Shown here in pieces: positions 4,237 through 37,198 of a stretch of DNA of 37,438 bases (position 1 is its first letter; the number at the start of each line of letters is the position of its first letter). The DNA is taken from positions 1-37,438 of IMG/VR virus record IMGVR_UViG_3300034012_001498, one strand, 5' to 3'. The notes below the pieces were generated by a model that worked only from the letters and a program-made list of their open reading frames with translations, searched no databases and was not told the origin of the DNA. The position numbers and the translations under genes were made by a program. Source of the DNA: a virus.

Positions 4237-4437
4237 TTATCTGTTTGCTGAAGAGGCCCGCTTACTGCTCCACCACGCCTCGAAAGATGGTTTGATGATT
4301 TCCCAGCCGCCGCGTTTGCCGCGCGGCATACACGCCGCAAACTCGCCGCGATGCGCGAAGCGGCGGATCATGTAGACCGAATAGCCGGTCATCGCTGCGG
4401 CCTCCTCGGGGCGAATGATGTGGTCGGCGTTGCTCAT
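4237..4437 (-). CDS. Excisionase / AlpA-like winged HTH protein
   Basis: 66 aa from the ATG at 4437, which overlaps the stop of the RHH gene. The sequence 'IIRPEEAAAMTGYSVYMIRRFAHRGEFAACMPRGKRGGWEIIKPSFEAWW' is a MerR-type winged helix: helix-turn-helix (EEAAAMTGYSVYMIRRFAHRG), then a wing with basic RGKRGGW, then a final helix. Phage Xis proteins and AlpA regulators have this plan. It is the second gene of the leftward early operon, near the integrase, so excisionase/recombination directionality is the likeliest job, with transcription regulation as the alternative. Confidence 0.75.
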   Translation of the reverse strand: MSNADHIIRPEEAAAMTGYSVYMIRRFAHRGEFAACMPRGKRGGWEIIKPSFEAWWSSKRASSANR

Positions 4438-4598
4438 GTCGCTTCTCCGAGTTCTCTGGCGAGCATGGCGCGCACAAACGCTGAAAGGCTTAGACCTTTT
4501 TGAAATGCCGCCTTGCGCGCAGCGCGGATCATGTCGGGCGGCAGCGAGATGCCTGCGCTCTTCGCTCGCTTGCTTGGTGCGATGGATTTCCGTGCCAT
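4434..4598 (-). CDS. RHH transcription regulator, first gene of the leftward early operon
   Basis: 54 aa from ATG at 4598 (MARKSIAPSKRAKSAG). It is a ribbon-helix-helix (Arc/CopG-type) protein: a beta strand around SAGISLPPDM, then two helices (IRAARKAAFQKGL and LSAFVRAMLARELG). The block KSAGISLPxDMI is shared with the divergent plus-strand RHH gene at 4707, so the two are paralogues. There is no Shine-Dalgarno. The predicted -10 ends 7 nt before the ATG, so the mRNA may be leaderless. The gene heads the whole early block and overlaps the excisionase-like gene by ATGA. By position it plays the part Cro plays in lambda. An upstream in-frame start at 4625 (MVSLANSWRMARK) would lie upstream of the predicted -10. 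Confidence 0.8.
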   Translation of the reverse strand: MARKSIAPSKRAKSAGISLPPDMIRAARKAAFQKGLSLSAFVRAMLARELGEAT

Positions 4599-4605
4599 GC
4601 GCCAA

Positions 4606-4635
4606 GAATTAGCAAGACTTACCAAGCCTTGGCAA
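4606..4635 (-). promoter_or_regulatory. Predicted early-left promoter (PL)
   Basis: On the minus strand TTGCCA (4635-4630), an 18-nt spacer and TAATTC (4611-4606), followed after 7 nt by the ATG of the RHH gene. The -35 lies inside the palindromic operator. The match to sigma-70 is moderate. Confidence 0.55.
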
Positions 4636-4638
4636 GTC
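4616..4638. promoter_or_regulatory. Palindromic operator between the divergent RHH genes
   Basis: Arms GACTTACCAAG and CTTGGCAAGTC flank a central C. They are complementary at 10 of 11 positions. The core matches TTGCCAA-N-TTGG dyads at the integrase promoter and the accessory-operon promoter. RHH dimers or tetramers bind such short inverted repeats, so this is a probable autoregulatory operator. Confidence 0.7.
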
Positions 4639-4671
4639 GAAAAATGGGGTGTTCAGCCTATACCCCAAAAA

Positions 4672-4700
4672 TTGACAAGAATTGCCATTTCACCTACGTT
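4672..4700 (+). promoter_or_regulatory. Predicted rightward promoter for the plus-strand RHH gene
   Basis: TTGACA (4672-4677), a 17-nt spacer and TACGTT (4695-4700), only 6 nt before the ATG at 4707. The transcript would begin at or next to the ATG, as lambda cI does from PRM. A TTGCCA half-site lies in the spacer. Confidence 0.6.
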
Positions 4701-4706
4701 AAGCGC

Positions 4707-4937
4707 ATGGCTTACCCAAAGCAAAAGCCCGACAAGGTGTCCAAGTCGGCAGGAATTTCGCTGCCAAGCGACATGATCAAGTTGTCCAAGCGCGAGGCGG
4801 CAAAACAGGGCAAGACCATGAGCGCCGTGGCTCGCCAGTTATTTAAGGCGTGGCTAGAGCAGTCGGGCGAGAGCCTTGAGAGTTCGGCCAAGGCAAAGCT
4901 GTCCAAGGCCAAGAGTTCCGTAAAAAAGCGCCGTTAA
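4707..4937 (+). CDS. RHH transcription regulator, candidate lysogeny repressor
   Basis: 76 aa, and the only plus-strand gene in the early region. It has an N-terminal basic arm (MAYPKQKPDKVSK), then an RHH fold (SAGISLPSDMIKLSKREAAKQGKTMSAVARQLFKAWLEQ) and a Ser/Lys-rich tail (SSAKAKLSKAKSSVKKRR) that could add non-specific DNA contacts. It is a paralogue of the divergent RHH protein at 4434-4598. The transcript is predicted leaderless, from a TTGACA-N17-TACGTT promoter. Opposite orientation to the lytic operon, autoregulatory geometry and the lack of any CI-like gene make it the best candidate for the maintenance repressor. That role is an inference. The ATG at 4707 is preferred to upstream in-frame codons because those overlap the promoter. 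Confidence 0.78.
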   Translation: MAYPKQKPDKVSKSAGISLPSDMIKLSKREAAKQGKTMSAVARQLFKAWLEQSGESLESSAKAKLSKAKSSVKKRR

Positions 4938-5009: not shown

Positions 5010-5174
5010 CTATTTGGGTTTTCGTTTTTGGCAATCTACTTTCGGCGTGTGAGGGAGTGTGACACCTTGGTGCTTTTTTAATAGCCTGTCGATATATTCT
5101 GAGCGGGAAAGAGTGCCTCGTGCCTCGTCAATCAGCCGGGTGGTCTGCTCGTCAAGTTGGATCGTCTTTTTCAT
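5010..5174 (-). CDS. CopG-like RHH protein
   Basis: 54 aa from ATG at 5174. MKKTIQLDEQTTRLIDEARG then LSRSEYIDRLLKKHQ is a textbook ribbon-helix-helix: strand, helix, turn, helix with Ser-Arg-Ser-Glu-Tyr. The tail is basic (PKVDCQKRKPK). It overlaps the upstream RHH gene by 23 nt. It resembles antitoxin-type or plasmid copy-control regulators, but there is no adjacent toxin gene. It probably regulates the integrase region. Confidence 0.75.
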   Translation of the reverse strand: MKKTIQLDEQTTRLIDEARGTLSRSEYIDRLLKKHQGVTLPHTPKVDCQKRKPK

Positions 5175-5337
5175 GTTTGCGCCTTTCTCTGTTCCGTTCC
5201 GCCGCAATAAGGGTGCGAACGAAAGTCGAAAAATCATCGAGGCCGCGCCTGCGCGCCTCTGCCATTGCCCAGGCATAAAGCTCTTTCCCCACGGTGATCG
5301 TGGTGCGCTTCACGTTGGCCGCTCTTTGGTTAGGCAT
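5152..5337 (-). CDS. RHH protein directly downstream of the integrase
   Basis: 61 aa from ATG at 5337, 2 nt after the integrase stop, so probably co-transcribed with it. VKRTTITVGKELYAWAMAEARRRGLDDFSTFVRTLIAAER fits a ribbon-helix-helix: strand KRTTITV, helix, then DFSTFVRTLIAAE as second helix. It is the fourth RHH protein within 0.9 kb. Possible roles are regulating int expression or acting as an accessory factor at attP. Confidence 0.72.
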   Translation of the reverse strand: MPNQRAANVKRTTITVGKELYAWAMAEARRRGLDDFSTFVRTLIAAERNRERRKHEKDDPT

Positions 5338-6389: not shown

Positions 6390-6463
6390 ACGAAAAGCCG
6401 CGACAAGCAAGAACACTGGAGCGGCGTAAGTGTCTAAGCCTGTGCGGCTTTTACTCTGTAAAG

Positions 6464-6521
6464 TGGCGGAAGGGGTGGGATTCGAACCCACGGTTGGTTT
6501 AACCCAACGCTCGATTTCGAG
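6464..6521 (-). other. attP core: 3' part of a tRNA-Ser (anticodon CGA)
   Basis: Read on the minus strand, the segment runs from the anticodon loop (CTCGAAA, anticodon CGA) through TCGAG to a long variable arm (GTTGG...CCAAC). It then has a perfect T-arm (GTGGG TTCGAAT CCCAC), the acceptor 3' strand CCCTTCC, G and CCA. The 5' half is absent: the bases beyond 6521 do not pair with this 3' half. This is what an attP carrying the 3' end of a host tRNA gene looks like. It lies about 115 bp upstream of the integrase start. Integration would restore an intact host tRNA-Ser. Confidence 0.82.
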
Positions 6522-6563
6522 GGGAGGGTTCGCTGCTAGTGGTCAGGCACTTACAAAAGCCCT

Positions 6564-6626: not shown

Positions 6627-7373
6627 GTGGCGACGATCACCCGAAAGTGGAAAAGATGGGTAGCCCTGACTTGTTCACATGGGTCCGACATCGACCCCAA
6701 AGCCCGCGAGGCCGCGCTGACTTTTATTGATCGCTGGAAACCCGAGCAGCGCCTGCACCTTGGCGATGCCATCGACTTAGCCTGTCTGCGAGCCGGTGCC
6801 AGGCGCGATCCTGATGAGCCAGACCGCGCTCAGTCGCTCATGGACGATTTGCTCTCTGGCCTTTCATTCCTACATGAGATCCGCCCGACTATCTATTTCC
6901 ACGGGAACCATGAGGCCCGCGCTGTCGCCCTAACTCACAGCGGCAACCAGATCGTCGCCTATGCCGCCTCTCAGGTGATGGCGAAGATGCACGACGGCCT
7001 CGCCAAATACAAAACCACGATCGTCCCCTATCGCGGCATTCTGCGGGAATCGGTCCGCCACTTAGGCGGCACAGCATTTCTCCACGGCGCTCTCTTCAAC
7101 GTCTCAGCCGCCCGCGACACGGCGGAAACCATCGGCACCCACTGCGTATTCGGCCACACGCACAGAATTGCCGTAGAAGCCGCTAGGACGCACGCAGACG
7201 CCATCGGCTACAACATCGGGTGCCTCACCCGTCTCGACATGGAATACGCGGCCTCGAGGCGCGCAACGTGCGCTTGGAGGCATGGCCTGGCTTATGGCGA
7301 ATATTTGCCTGACGGCACCGGCTGCACCGTGAACGTGCTGACGCTTTCCCCCCACTACCGCCTGCCCCTATGA
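6627..7373 (+). CDS. Calcineurin-like metallophosphoesterase
   Basis: 248 aa, GTG start. Metallophosphoesterase superfamily: LGDAID (Asp47), FHGNHEAR (Asn94, His95), a later His in FLHGALFN, and FGHTHR near residue 174. These order correctly as the di-metal ligands. The first motif, usually D-x-H, reads C-S-H here (CSH at 16-18), so one canonical Asp ligand appears replaced by Cys. The substrate is unknown. Phage relatives cleave nucleotides or phosphodiesters and are often carried as accessory genes. It is the first gene of a four-gene operon next to attP, opposite to the lytic genes, which suggests expression in the lysogen. Confidence 0.82.
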   Translation: MATITRKWKRWVALTCSHGSDIDPKAREAALTFIDRWKPEQRLHLGDAIDLACLRAGARRDPDEPDRAQSLMDDLLSGLSFLHEIRPTIYFHGNHEARAVALTHSGNQIVAYAASQVMAKMHDGLAKYKTTIVPYRGILRESVRHLGGTAFLHGALFNVSAARDTAETIGTHCVFGHTHRIAVEAARTHADAIGYNIGCLTRLDMEYAASRRATCAWRHGLAYGEYLPDGTGCTVNVLTLSPHYRLPL

Positions 7374-7636
7374 GCCGCAAACCCAAAGCAATCGGCTCAG
7401 ACGCCGACCTCGCCGCCTGGTGCGCTGCCTTAGCCGAGCCCTGCATTGCCGCCGAGGCCGTGCCCGCCGGCTGGTTCACGGTGGCCGATTTGGCCGACCA
7501 GACGCAGCGCAGGCCCGTCACGGTAAGCGGGCGAATGCGGGACTTCGTGCGCCAAGGCAAAGCCGAGATGCGCCGTTTCCGCATAATGACCGGGCGCGGC
7601 GTTTATCCCGTGCCGCATTATCGACTGCTACAATGA
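7370..7636 (+). CDS. Small winged-helix-like protein
   Basis: 88 aa. The ATG overlaps the stop of the phosphoesterase gene (ATGA). AGWFTVADLADQTQRRPVTVSGRMRDFVRQGKAEMRRFR reads as a helix-turn-helix: helix TVADLADQT, recognition helix VTVSGRMRDFVRQG, then a wing with MRRFRIMTGRGVYPVPHYRL. It is probably a DNA-binding regulator of the operon or phage. Exact family not recognised. Confidence 0.65.
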   Translation: MSRKPKAIGSDADLAAWCAALAEPCIAAEAVPAGWFTVADLADQTQRRPVTVSGRMRDFVRQGKAEMRRFRIMTGRGVYPVPHYRLLQ

Positions 7637-7971
7637 GCAAACGATTAGCAAAAAAGTCAGTCAAGCGCCCCACGCTGCGCTTCAAGCTAGACGGCGAGTG
7701 GTGGACGGTGCGCGTTGAGCGGCCCCCGGATCGGGAATTATGTGAGGGGTGCGTGGTCTACAAGAAACGAACCATTTACTTCCACCCGAAGGCCGTGAAA
7801 GACAACCTGCTCGGCATCGTCGCGCACGAGCTTGCCCATGTGAACTTCGTGTGCGCTGACGAAACCCATGTCCGCGACCATGAGCGGTTGGTTTCGGTTG
7901 TCGCGCGCTGGCTCGCCAATACCTTCTGCGATGGGAAGATCAGCATCGGCCAGCACAGGCGGGACAAATGA
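7633..7971 (+). CDS. HExxH zinc metallopeptidase-like protein
   Basis: 112 aa from ATG at 7633, coupled to the previous gene by ATGA. The zinc-peptidase motif HELAH sits in GIVAHELAHVNF near residue 60, followed by ETHVRDHERLVSVVARWL, where a third ligand (His or Glu) could lie. The N-terminus is basic (MSKRLAKKSVKRPTLRF). It resembles compact SprT/ImmA-like metallopeptidase domains. ImmA-type proteins cleave repressors, but here that is only a possibility. A longer reading from 7420 is another frame of the previous gene and is not favoured. Confidence 0.7.
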   Translation: MSKRLAKKSVKRPTLRFKLDGEWWTVRVERPPDRELCEGCVVYKKRTIYFHPKAVKDNLLGIVAHELAHVNFVCADETHVRDHERLVSVVARWLANTFCDGKISIGQHRRDK

Positions 7972-8120
7972 CCTTCTGGCCCCTCGTCATCACCACCGCC
8001 TGCTACTTGTGGACGGCCTACGGATTCTGGAGCCAAGGCCAGCCAGCCCTCGGAACTTGCTTTCTGTTCTATGCCTGCGCCAACGCGGGCTTCATGGCGA
8101 TTGCCTTGGGGTGGCGCTAA
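7968..8120 (+). CDS. 50-aa double-pass membrane peptide
   Basis: ATG at 7968 overlaps the preceding TGA. Translation starts MTFWPLVITTACYLWTAYGF, then WSQGQPALG as a turn, then TCFLFYACANAGFMAIALGW. This makes two hydrophobic helices of similar length in a hairpin. It is probably an inner-membrane protein. As last gene of the accessory operon next to the lysis region it could be an antiholin or an exclusion protein. This is inference only. Confidence 0.65.
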   Translation: MTFWPLVITTACYLWTAYGFWSQGQPALGTCFLFYACANAGFMAIALGWR

Positions 8121-23839: not shown

Positions 23840-24399
23840 CAGCCGCAAGCAGGCTTGCTGCGGTAATCGTAAAGGTAGATCGGATGCTCTGCGGCCATCG
23901 CCTCGGTTTTGAGGTGGGGCAGGATCGCCAAAGCGTAGTCGTAGTCCTCGCCATAATCTCGGTCCCCAAATCGAGCCTTGAGGGCAATTTCCCGCCGCAC
24001 CGGGCAAAGGTGGTGCGGGGTGCGGTTGTTGCCGCTCCATGCGGTGTTTTTGCGGTATTTGAGCGAGTGGCGGAAGACGGGGTTTGGTGACCAGGGAACG
24101 CCGTCTCGCTTCAAATACATGGACAAGCCTACGCAGTCTGGCTGGCTTTGCAGGGCGCTCATGATGCAGGCAACGTAATTGGTGGCGACTAGGTCATCGT
24201 CATCCACAAAGACAATGTATTCGGCCCGCGCTTCTTCGATCATGCGCCTGCGCTTCGGGCCGATGCGGTCGCTGCCGGGGTCCACTACGATGCGGGCGGC
24301 GGGCTCGTCTTCGATTTGCGGGACCAAGACGGCCAAGAGTCGCGCCAGCGCCTGCGTGCGGGCGGCGGTCGTGGGGATGAGAATGTCGAGCGTTACCAT
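23836..24399 (-). CDS. Small GT2-family glycosyltransferase
   Basis: 187 aa. MVTLDILIPTTAARTQALARLL, IVVDPGSDRIGPKRRRMIEEA and AEYIVFVDDDDLVATNYV show the nucleotide-sugar domain of a GT-A (GT2) enzyme with a DxD-type acidic cluster (VDDDD). The family is usually longer, so this is a minimal catalytic domain. It overlaps the upstream two-domain enzyme by 7 nt and was probably acquired with it. The two could act in sequence on the same glycan. Confidence 0.82.
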   Translation of the reverse strand: MVTLDILIPTTAARTQALARLLAVLVPQIEDEPAARIVVDPGSDRIGPKRRRMIEEARAEYIVFVDDDDLVATNYVACIMSALQSQPDCVGLSMYLKRDGVPWSPNPVFRHSLKYRKNTAWSGNNRTPHHLCPVRREIALKARFGDRDYGEDYDYALAILPHLKTEAMAAEHPIYLYDYRSKPACGC

Positions 24400-26108
24400 C
24401 CCTTCGCCACGGCGTCAGCGTTGCGGCGAGCAAAGACCTCGCGGCCTCGGGCATTCGCCTCTGGGTTTTGCTGCCGGCGGTAGGCTTCGTCGGACTCCGC
24501 GCCAGTGAATGCCGGGTGGTCGTGGTAAAGCTGAATGTGCCGCCCGTTGAGAACCTTGGTGTCGCGGTAAGCTCGGAAGCTATATTCCGTATCCGACCAG
24601 TAGCCGTCGTATTCAGGGCAGAGCAACCACTCGCGCCCGAGCCACCATCGCCAGTTGTAGCACATCGCGACCATAAGCGGGTCGCCTTCTGCGCGGAATC
24701 CGTCGTGCAAGTGCAGCACTGCCGGCGCATCCATGTTGCCGTCGAAGGCGCGGACAATCAGCTCGTCCCAGCCGTGCGGCACATACAAATCGTCTTGCAG
24801 CATGAGGAAAATCTTTGCGCCTGATTCGGCGGCGGCGCGGGCGGCTGCGTTGTAATTCGCCACGGCAGAGGCGTGTCCCTCGGGAACCGATTGAGAGACG
24901 GCGTGCGGATAGTGCCGTAATGCCTCTACAACCGCGCTGTCGCCTTCGTTCACGCCGAAGTAATAGGCAACCTGGTCGGGCTTTGCGGCCCTTGCTAGGG
25001 CCATTTCGCGCACGGCAATCGCTTTTTCTGGGCGGCAAGTCGGATGGCCGATGGCGATGCGGACCTTGTTGCGTTTGTGATACGCCTTGCGGATGCGAGC
25101 GGCATCGTCAGGTTTGCCGCTTTTAGCCAGGGCAAGGCACTTCAGGTCATGCGCTCGCCATCCGTAGAGTGAGGCATCGTGCGTCCAGCTTGCCTCGTTT
25201 GGTTCTTCCTGCGCTTCCATTGCCTTAACATAGGCCAACGCTTTGTTAGCGGACCCGCGCGCTAGGTGGGCCTTCGCAAGTTCGGCGTAGCCTTCGCGCC
25301 GATGCGGCATAAGGCGCACGGCCTCGAGGAGCGGGCGCTCGGAACCTTCGATGTCTTTGATCCAGCGGCCAATCATTTGGTAGGCCGAAAACTTTTCCTC
25401 GTCGCCCAGATCGTCGCGGCCTGTGGCAACCACGGCGGCAGCCATCGCTTTCGGGATGTCTTGCGCCATCTCGCACTCGCGGAACAAAAACCACCATTCG
25501 CGGCCCGTGCGCTCGGCCTCGGGAATGGCCTCGAGGATGCGCCGGTTGCGGACCACGCTGGCACGCTTGTTGTTGGCCGGCATATGGACAACTTGCAATT
25601 CCATTGCCCATGAGAGCTTGGCTTCGGGGTCATGCTCAACGTCTTCATGCACCGCATTGACCCACTTGCGATAATGCTTCTTGCTGACCAGACGGGCGCG
25701 GCGGGCGTAGCTGCCCGATGCGTCCACGATGTAGGGCGCATAGATCACATCGCCCTGGGCGTCACCGCCCTCGCGGATTAGGCGCAGGACGGCTTCGGCG
25801 GTGGGCGAGAGCAGATCGTCACAATCGGCCCACATAAACCAGTCGGTGTCCTCGGGTGCCAGCGCCCAGCTTTGCGTGCGGGCGGCTGCGAAGTTATCGA
25901 CGTGCTCCCATTGCCTATCGGGCGCATTCCAGTATTCGCCTGTGATACAGCCGCGCTCTTTGGCGATGTCGAGCGTCCTGTCGGGCGATTGGTTGCCAAT
26001 GGCGCGAACAACCGAAACGGAATCAAAGTGCGCTTGGAAGCTGTCCAAGAAGCGGCCAATCATGGCCTCTTCGTTGCCCGCAATTATGCCGAGATGTATT
26101 TTTGCCAC
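24393..26108 (-). CDS. Two-domain glycosyltransferase (GT2-like N- and C-domains)
   Basis: 571 aa from GTG at 26108 (MAKIHLGIIAGNEEAMIG); the ORF continues upstream to 26192 but through two terminator hairpins, so the GTG is preferred. The N-terminal GT-A domain has FMWADCDD (about 92-98) as the DXD site. A helical, TPR-like middle (REGYAELAKAHLARGSANKALAYVKAME) precedes a second GT-A domain with IFLMLQDDLYVPHGWDELIV and GYWSDTEYSFRAY. Two catalytic units suggest it builds a disaccharide. It sits right after the major capsid gene, an unusual place, so capsid or tail protein glycosylation is possible. There is no Shine-Dalgarno at the GTG. Confidence 0.85.
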   Translation of the reverse strand: MAKIHLGIIAGNEEAMIGRFLDSFQAHFDSVSVVRAIGNQSPDRTLDIAKERGCITGEYWNAPDRQWEHVDNFAAARTQSWALAPEDTDWFMWADCDDLLSPTAEAVLRLIREGGDAQGDVIYAPYIVDASGSYARRARLVSKKHYRKWVNAVHEDVEHDPEAKLSWAMELQVVHMPANNKRASVVRNRRILEAIPEAERTGREWWFLFRECEMAQDIPKAMAAAVVATGRDDLGDEEKFSAYQMIGRWIKDIEGSERPLLEAVRLMPHRREGYAELAKAHLARGSANKALAYVKAMEAQEEPNEASWTHDASLYGWRAHDLKCLALAKSGKPDDAARIRKAYHKRNKVRIAIGHPTCRPEKAIAVREMALARAAKPDQVAYYFGVNEGDSAVVEALRHYPHAVSQSVPEGHASAVANYNAAARAAAESGAKIFLMLQDDLYVPHGWDELIVRAFDGNMDAPAVLHLHDGFRAEGDPLMVAMCYNWRWWLGREWLLCPEYDGYWSDTEYSFRAYRDTKVLNGRHIQLYHDHPAFTGAESDEAYRRQQNPEANARGREVFARRNADAVAKGW

Positions 26109-26111
26109 GCT

Positions 26112-26152
26112 AAAAAAAGGAAGGGCCACGGCGAGTGGAACCGTGACCCCTT
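26112..26152 (-). terminator. Rho-independent terminator after the major capsid gene
   Basis: On the minus strand AAGGGGTCACGG, loop, CCGTGGCCCTT, CC and seven T. The stem is 11 bp with one bulge, and the T-run ends 3 nt before the GTG of the glycosyltransferase. This would limit downstream expression. Confidence 0.82.
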
Positions 26153-36750: not shown

Positions 36751-36998
36751 TGTGCGTCCCTCCGCATCACGGCCCGCCCAAAGCGCCACCAGCGCCGAAA
36801 CTCCTCGCGGCTCATCTGCCCGGCTTGAAACAGCCAACGGGCAAAACACATCATTTGAGTCGCCATAGACCAGCCGGAGGTTTCCGGCATATTGCGGTAA
36901 AGAAAGACCTGCCGAGGCCAATCGGCCAACCGCCTACGCCAATAAGGGAACAGGCGCTCTTCAGGGTGCGCCGTAAGTAGCTCGAGTTGCTGACTCAC
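36747..36998 (-). CDS. Hypothetical protein (83 aa)
   Basis: GTG at 36998 overlaps the previous TGA. Aromatic and basic (ERLFPYWRRRLADWPRQVFLYRNM, REEFRRWWRFGRAVMRR). Family not recognised. Its stop overlaps the start of the primase gene, so it may be a replication accessory. Confidence 0.6.
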   Translation of the reverse strand: MSQQLELLTAHPEERLFPYWRRRLADWPRQVFLYRNMPETSGWSMATQMMCFARWLFQAGQMSREEFRRWWRFGRAVMRRDAQ

Positions 36999-37198
36999 GC
37001 CGCCTCCTTCCGATTCCAGTTGGCCAACAACTCATCCCGCAGTTGCCGCGCTTGGTTCACGTCCTTCGTGCCGAGCGGCCGGCGGATGCGTTGCTTGGTG
37101 TAATCCTCGCGGTGCTCCACCACGTTCAGCCACCACGTCCCGTTGTTGAGCCACAGGTGATGGTTCGGGTTCTTGTTTGGGCGGATGGACAGGCTCAT
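36995..37198 (-). CDS. Stand-alone integrase-type arm-binding domain protein
   Basis: 67 aa from ATG at 37198, overlapping the DUF551 gene stop. HHLWLNNGTWWLNVVEHREDY, RIRRPLGTKDVNQARQLRDEL matches the three-stranded DNA-binding domain at the N-terminus of tyrosine recombinases (W-x-hydrophobic, then 'LGTxDxxxARxxRDELLA'). There is no catalytic domain. It could compete for or assist binding at integrase arm sites, or act as a small regulator. Confidence 0.6.
   Translation of the reverse strand: MSLSIRPNKNPNHHLWLNNGTWWLNVVEHREDYTKQRIRRPLGTKDVNQARQLRDELLANWNRKEAA

Follow-up and report, generated by a model that had tools for sequence, protein, structure and literature searches.

The CI/Cro region of phage lambda combines divergent promoters and shared operators with a repressor gene that points toward the integrase and with Cro as the first early gene, and it is exchanged between phages as a module. 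In P22, a separate C2/Cro-type switch, immC, exists alongside Arc (53 aa) and Mnt (82 aa), the two small ribbon-helix-helix (RHH) repressors of the immI region. The arc/mnt pair governs the antirepressor gene ant, which is located in a moron of the late operon (PMC2629481). The small RHH protein F55 of the archaeal fusellovirus SSV1 acts as a CI-like keeper of lysogeny and binds to tandem repeats in the early promoters as well as in its own promoter (PMC5569661). Akkermansia phage Chantilly, by its integrase (24% identity) the closest isolated phage to the virus described here, is of the temperate type and has a Verrucomicrobiota host; its record annotates a long 'transcriptional repressor' (789-nt CDS).

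The window, i.e., the whole stretch of DNA that was analyzed, has a length of 37,438 bp and contains the complete IMG/VR record. Two divergent genes in it, here termed RHH-A and RHH-B (positions 4434 to 4937), probably constitute the immunity switch of a temperate Verrucomicrobiota phage, in which two RHH paralogues would read one operator. The arrangement appears lambda-like in its divergent promoters with putatively shared operators beside the integrase gene and in the position of one partner as the first early gene, and it resembles P22 immI in pairing two small RHH proteins, whose sizes match those of Arc and Mnt, with one operator region; moreover, P22 Arc is the best structural match of RHH-A. 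Unlike in lambda, RHH proteins replace both the HTH repressor and the HTH Cro protein, and some relatives have tandem genes without a divergent one. Unlike in P22, the pair is found next to the integrase gene and on the early promoter, its operators are arrays of 10-bp boxes, and no ant-type gene was identified downstream of the pair, where the early operon follows. SSV1 F55 differs in being a single regulator that works at an archaeal promoter through an 8–11 bp repeat, ATAGATAG(AGT), and has no RHH partner in the role of Cro; beyond the fold, no homology to the RHH pair of the window is known.

The RHH gene pair and its surroundings

A sequence-only reading of this DNA had described two divergently transcribed RHH paralogues with the common motif KSAGISLPxDMI, and this description proved correct. 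The genes are separated by a spacer of 108 nt (4599–4706; Table 1), and we regard their products as paralogues because a profile comparison matched them with 98.7% probability and 40% identity over 53 columns. RHH-A is conserved in 33 viral loci, and RHH-B is its partner in the relatives. In Foldseek searches with RHH-A, chains of the Arc repressor came out best (TM 0.63, rmsd 1.1 over 37 residues, E ~0.4), and a PHROG match is named 'Arc-like repressor' (E 0.039). RHH-B matched Pfam RHH_1 with an E-value of 0.0034, its search against PDB profiles returned mostly RHH proteins (ParG, SvtR, CdbA, Arc, and CopG), and its closest solved structures are StnY, Arc, CdbA, and other RHH proteins. AlphaFold monomer models place helices at residues 21–33 and 38–53 after an extended N-terminal stretch. 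The layout of the RHH (MetJ/Arc) superfamily, a strand and two helices in a core of about 45 aa, is thus present, while the RHH_1 scores of 17.7 and 15.2 bits remain under the curated Pfam cut-off of 20.5. Weak single E-values are usual for folds of 45 residues, and we assign RHH-A and RHH-B to the RHH proteins because the matches are consistent, although each E-value is weak when taken singly. A start of RHH-B at 4644, which would yield a protein of 97 aa, was rejected, since the extension would span an invariant promoter and the L009 group does not preserve its reading frame.

Table 1. Features of the RHH locus and its surroundings, in order of position within the window.
Feature	Position	Strand	Basis
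HTH_17/excisionase-like gene, second in early operon, directly behind RHH-A	4237–4437	−	Pfam HTH_17, PHROG
RHH-A, 54 aa, first gene of leftward early operon	4434–4598	−	ORF, Foldseek, PHROG
Operator array over PA, CTTGCCAAGG-CTTGGTAAGT-CTTGCTAATT-CTTGGCGC	4599–4636	−	lag-10 autocorrelation, genome scan
Promoter PA, TTGCCA(4635–4630)-N18-TAATTC(4611–4606)-N7-ATG(4598)	4606–4635	−	sequence
Conserved element between PA and PB, TGGGGT-N11-ACCCCA	4645–4667		kept across unrelated RHH cassettes
Two boxes over PB −35, AATGGCAATT-CTTGTCAATT	4670–4689	−	fourth-ranked two-box site in genome; conserved
Promoter PB, TTGACA(4672–4677)-N17-TACGTT(4695–4700)-N6-ATG(4707)	4672–4700	+	sequence
RHH-B, 76 aa, lone gene	4707–4937	+	ORF, Pfam RHH_1, PDB profile matches
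RHH2, 54 aa, small RHH-like, integrase operon	5010–5174	−	pattern only
RHH1, 61 aa, small RHH-like, behind integrase	5152–5337	−	pattern only
Tyrosine integrase, 336 aa	5340–6350	−	Phage_integrase 5.8e-7, PHROG 1 1.6e-28
attP core, 3' part of tRNA-Ser(CGA)	6461–6520	−	sequence comparison

Nearly all genes of the record are located on the minus strand, including those for terminase, portal, tail, and other late-type proteins as well as for primase/helicase, exonuclease, and Holliday-junction resolvase. A large glycosyltransferase gene (24393–26129; PHROG 13126) is situated amid the structural genes, and an isolated ORF of 67 aa near the end of the record (36998–37198) matches DUF6538 below the cut-off (E 3.9e-5). 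The early operon runs leftward from 4598 and diverges at the spacer from RHH-B, a single rightward gene that is convergent with the integrase gene and the two small RHH-like genes, RHH1 and RHH2. Homologues of RHH1 and RHH2 occur in relatives, and no Pfam support was found for either protein. The second product of the early operon matched Pfam HTH_17 above the cut-off and a PHROG for excisionase (E 2e-4). The only other rightward genes (6627–8120) lie immediately next to attP and encode a metallophosphoesterase, a small winged-helix-like protein, a metallopeptidase-like protein, and a membrane protein. The attP core is 88% identical to a tRNA-Ser(CGA) gene that adjoins a related integrase gene in a Verrucomicrobia MAG. 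The integrase and the position of attP in the 3' end of tRNA-Ser indicate a phage of the temperate type, and the RHH pair, which sits between integrase and early operon, occupies the place expected for the immunity region of such a phage. Host-side relatives are almost all Verrucomicrobiota MAGs, and the genome contigs that gave matches belong to Verrucomicrobiota or close PVC lineages, with the exception of one partial match over 35 residues labelled Deltaproteobacteria. The related MAGs thus point to a host among the Verrucomicrobiota.

The same reading had noted that no CI/Cro-type gene accompanies the integrase gene. This was confirmed, and a CI-type gene was not found anywhere in the record: the CI, Cro, HTH_3, and S24 families were all absent from the best 25 of the 48 Pfam families matched at E ≤ 0.01 by the 63 predicted proteins. 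A weak match to HTH_Crp_2 (E 0.005 in the joint scan, 0.075 when rescanned) concerns a protein encoded at 7370–7633 in the rightward operon beyond attP, and it is unlikely that this protein acts as the repressor. From the original idea of a switch made of two RHH proteins only, the RHH pair and the lack of a CI-type gene can be retained, but RHH1, RHH2, and the HTH_17 gene had been overlooked.

Promoters and operator boxes in the spacer

As originally predicted, the −10 elements of PA and PB end 7 and 6 nt, respectively, before the ATG codons. A simple promoter scan of the sequence reported neither PA nor PB because it demanded at least four of six matches per hexamer. Both promoters are nevertheless recognizable in the 11 phages that could be aligned: PB retains TTGACA, a spacing of 17 nt, the −10 element TACGTT (once TAGGTT), six further nucleotides, and [AG]TG, while PA retains TTG-C-A, a spacing of 18 nt, TA at −10, seven further nucleotides, and ATG. 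A 19-nt core in the −35 region of PB, CAATTCTTGTCAATTTTTG, is invariant in all 11 phages. Spacer length, box array, and leaderless geometry thus persist in the eleven phages with a type I cassette (see below for cassette types). According to a published mark (PMC3160421), leaderless bacterial genes carry the sequence TANNNT some 12 bp ahead of their start. Measured against this mark, TACGTT of PB is an exact match at 12, whereas the weak −10 element of PA, TAATTC, is positioned at 13, lacks the final T, and fits only loosely. The absence of a Shine-Dalgarno sequence, which had been put forward as a sign of leaderless transcripts, is real for both genes and yet uninformative, because 36 of the 56 predicted genes of the genome are without a Shine-Dalgarno-like match; some Verrucomicrobia have been described as scarce in such sequences (PMC10783764). 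With this conserved promoter spacing, the transcripts of RHH-A and RHH-B may be leaderless.

The PA array consists of three full boxes and one partial box of the type CTTGnnAAG with a spacing of 10 bp and extends from the −35 element down to the start codon of the first early gene, so that the order upstream of RHH-A is CTTGCCAAGG-CTTGGTAAGT-CTTGCTAATT-CTTGGCGC-ATG. At lag 10, the identity amounts to 0.62, a value that was reached in none of 2000 shuffles. The lag-10 array is present in seven representative phages, in six of which it is significant even when any lag is allowed (P ≤ 0.004); the seventh, L014, gave P 0.0055 for lag 10 and P 0.06 for any lag. In more distant RHH-A groups, lag 10 is the best or near-best lag, mostly without significance. 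The palindrome reported earlier over the −35 element of one promoter (4616–4626/4628–4638) exists, with 10 of 11 positions paired, but it represents two adjacent boxes of the longer 10-bp array, and on its own it is only moderately unlikely, given that 9 of 500 spacer shuffles reached it.

When the whole genome was scanned with a box matrix, the top two-box sites (27.6 to 17.8 bits) were those over PA and PB, with the PA array as the strongest two-box array of the genome; since the matrix was trained on the PA and PB boxes, their rank is circular, whereas the scarcity of comparable sites elsewhere is not. The best two-box site in the remainder of the 37-kb genome reached 14.6 bits at 6561 in the attP region, and all others stayed below 10 bits. 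This weaker match at 6561 was also the only result of the search for a further RHH site in the integrase region. The boxes AATGGCAATT-CTTGTCAATT over the −35 element of PB are probably an autoregulatory or cross-regulatory site. By analogy with Arc and CopG, the 10-bp phasing would align neighboring dimers along one face of the DNA helix and would suit cooperative binding of RHH proteins.

The element TGGGGT-N11-ACCCCA behaves differently from the boxes in that it does not change with the cassette. Most relatives (L005–L013, L015, L018, L042, L054, L076, L078, L079, and L081), irrespective of their RHH cassette, have an element of this type about 55–72 bp ahead of the start of the first early RHH gene; in type II, it is reversed. 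Binding by the HTH_17 protein was dropped as an explanation, as the element is kept in phages without HTH_17. The LexA motif of Verrucomicrobia is TGTTC-N4-GAACA; control of the early promoter by LexA was likewise discarded, the element fitting this motif by a half site only.

Exchange of RHH cassettes among related phages

Sixty viral loci with the integrase were found, and further loci were found with RHH-A and RHH-B. Relatives with integrases of 70–90% identity carry unrelated RHH pairs, either divergent or tandem, in the same slot, which we define as the region between the integrase gene and the HTH_17 gene. The slot contains the RHH-A/RHH-B pair and its relatives in type I, another divergent pair in type II (L018, L023, L024, L032, and L034), and two co-oriented RHH-like genes in type III (L016, L022, L026, L028, L030, and L037), whereby the proteins of types II and III were called RHH on their pattern alone and gave neither a Pfam match nor an RHH structure in PDB profile searches. 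In type II loci, integrases and HTH_17 proteins are each 74–89% identical to those of the window phage. In the tandem type III, the two genes are separated by a promoter-like sequence, TTGAGC-N17-TAGAAA. More distant phages and the MAGs L076, L078, L079, and L081 have additional pairs, either divergent or tandem. One of ten RHH type proteins is encoded in 45 of the 47 viral loci that have both integrase and HTH_17 genes (window included); the remaining two are L051, which has a further RHH pair, and L029, which ends before the slot. Unrelated pairs occupy the same slot between flanking genes of 82–90% identity, and when the DNA of the window was compared with that of L018, it aligned on both sides of the slot and not inside. 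Immunity regions of lambdoid phages are exchanged in the same way. L016, L022, L023, L024, L028, and L030 have their integrase gene in inverted orientation with respect to the switch, and the attP core lies between the two; the homologues of RHH1 and RHH2 are found upstream of the switch in type III relatives, where the integrase gene is inverted.

Early promoters aligned by RHH type share a (g)TAGG...CACCCC-like element on the upstream side, a stretch rich in A and T, and a TTGxCx −35 element, followed by a symmetric sequence near the start codon that differs by RHH type. The operator thus changes with the RHH type, while the −35 and upstream elements are constant. It consists of the 10-bp boxes in type I, ACCAGTA repeats in type II, GCCGTCTGACGGC with GGTGGTAGAAACACCACC in type III, GGTTTTAGTAACC in type VI, GGTGTCnGACACC in type VII, GGTGGTTATACACC in type VIII, and GGGTTTATTAAACCC in type IX; in type IV (L042 and L050), an identical box, ACCAGTAATAC, is found at both gene starts. 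Among the MAGs, the spacer of L081 has GTGCACC boxes and that of L078 has 10-bp ATTGCTACCA repeats at the early promoter.

Partners within a cassette are alike in the residues expected to read DNA. Strand positions were taken as those of Arc residues 9, 11, and 13, anchored in the HMMER alignment of RHH-A with Arc, and the other cassettes were aligned by eye. In that alignment, the Arc contacts Q9, N11, and R13 correspond to S14, G16, and S18 of RHH-A, and RHH-B has all three. With one cassette per family, the strand contacts of partners scored 81, whereas shuffling the partners gave 21 on average (P 0.0006), and partners are identical at 16 of 27 strand contacts as opposed to 32 of 126 positions in helix A. 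Since helix A likewise shows more similarity than expected by chance (P 0.002), common ancestry of the partners accounts for part of the likeness in the strands.

A model of the switch and its alternatives

An immunity switch made of RHH proteins only appears well supported by comparison, because the pair is swapped as a unit together with its operators, because the strands of the partners are alike, and because no CI-like gene was found among the 63 predicted proteins. In the lysogen, RHH-B produced from its own leaderless promoter PB would bind cooperatively to the 10-bp boxes over PA and would thereby silence the early operon, i.e., RHH-A, the Xis-like gene, and the genes for recombination and replication, while the box pair over the −35 element of PB would allow RHH-B to regulate its own gene. 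During lytic growth, RHH-A as the first product of PA would bind to the same boxes, shut off PB, and later temper PA in a Cro-like manner. The assignment of RHH-B as the lysogenic repressor (CI/Mnt-like) and of RHH-A as its Cro/Arc-like partner follows from position: RHH-B is presumed to be the repressor because it is a lone gene facing the integrase with a strong promoter that is not buried in boxes, and a Cro-like role is presumed for RHH-A because it heads the early operon and lies under the array. Tandem cassettes without a divergent gene indicate that CI/Cro logic is not general in its divergent form. The lambda-like layout would be one version of a broader design of RHH pairs, and tandem pairs must have another mode of action, possibly one that relies on a heteromer or on staggered promoters.

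RHH proteins such as Arc and CopG are obligate dimers with paired strands, and RHH-A and RHH-B are paralogous over the whole RHH core. It is conceivable, if rather doubtful, that the two proteins form heterodimers in which one poisons the other as an antirepressor, so that titration would matter more than competition for the operator. This would suit the tandem cassettes, which co-produce both partners and fit a heteromer better than competition; in the divergent cassettes, however, separate promoters and array sites are conserved and would suffice for competition.

We consider it unlikely that the pair is merely an accessory autoregulator of early genes comparable to arc/mnt, with lysogeny maintained by an unrecognized repressor, e.g., RHH1/RHH2, the HTH_17 protein, or an unannotated protein. 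The P22 immI module with its two RHH repressors does control an antirepressor and not the main immunity (PMC2629481), and candidates for a second repressor can be named, as two further RHH-like genes adjoin the integrase gene, a weak HTH_Crp_2 match exists at 7370–7633 (E 0.075), and most of the proteins encoded in the record are functionally unassigned. Yet neither an ant gene nor a second repressor region was found in the record, the pair would control the first early promoter itself, and it is precisely the RHH module that is exchanged while the integrase/Xis genes on either side are near-identical. In addition, RHH1 and RHH2 are absent behind the integrase gene in L007 and L008, and the L126 and L137 groups keep the RHH pair without HTH_17. 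A partition or copy-number module (ParG/CopG-like) or an antitoxin remnant is highly improbable, for although the sequence neighbors include ParG, CopG, and FitA/VapB-type antitoxins, no gene for ParA, a replication initiator, or a toxin adjoins the pair, integrase and attP point to an integrating phage, and the boxes cover the promoter of the early operon.

Beyond the single locus, we incline with some reserve to the view that a group of temperate Verrucomicrobiota phages has replaced CI/Cro by exchangeable RHH pairs, of which at least eight dissimilar ones with their own operators would be combined with one conserved early promoter and a leaderless start and would form separate immunity groups. 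The annotated repressor of Chantilly shows that phages of Verrucomicrobiota do not all follow the RHH design. The literature that was searched contained no description of RHH pairs serving tailed phages as their main, exchangeable immunity module, nor of RHH pairs as immunity modules in Verrucomicrobiota phages, which is no proof of novelty. As RHH-A and RHH-B have no S24 autocleavage domain, induction of the prophage, whether by DNA damage or by other stress, must differ from that in lambda. If the RHH-only switch described here is true, proteins that read DNA with a strand would make the main immunity decision in a group of tailed phages, and the CI/Cro design would have a second, independent solution in bacteria. 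With its one promoter frame and many natural pairs of protein and operator, this phage group would offer a ready set for learning the recognition code of RHH proteins.
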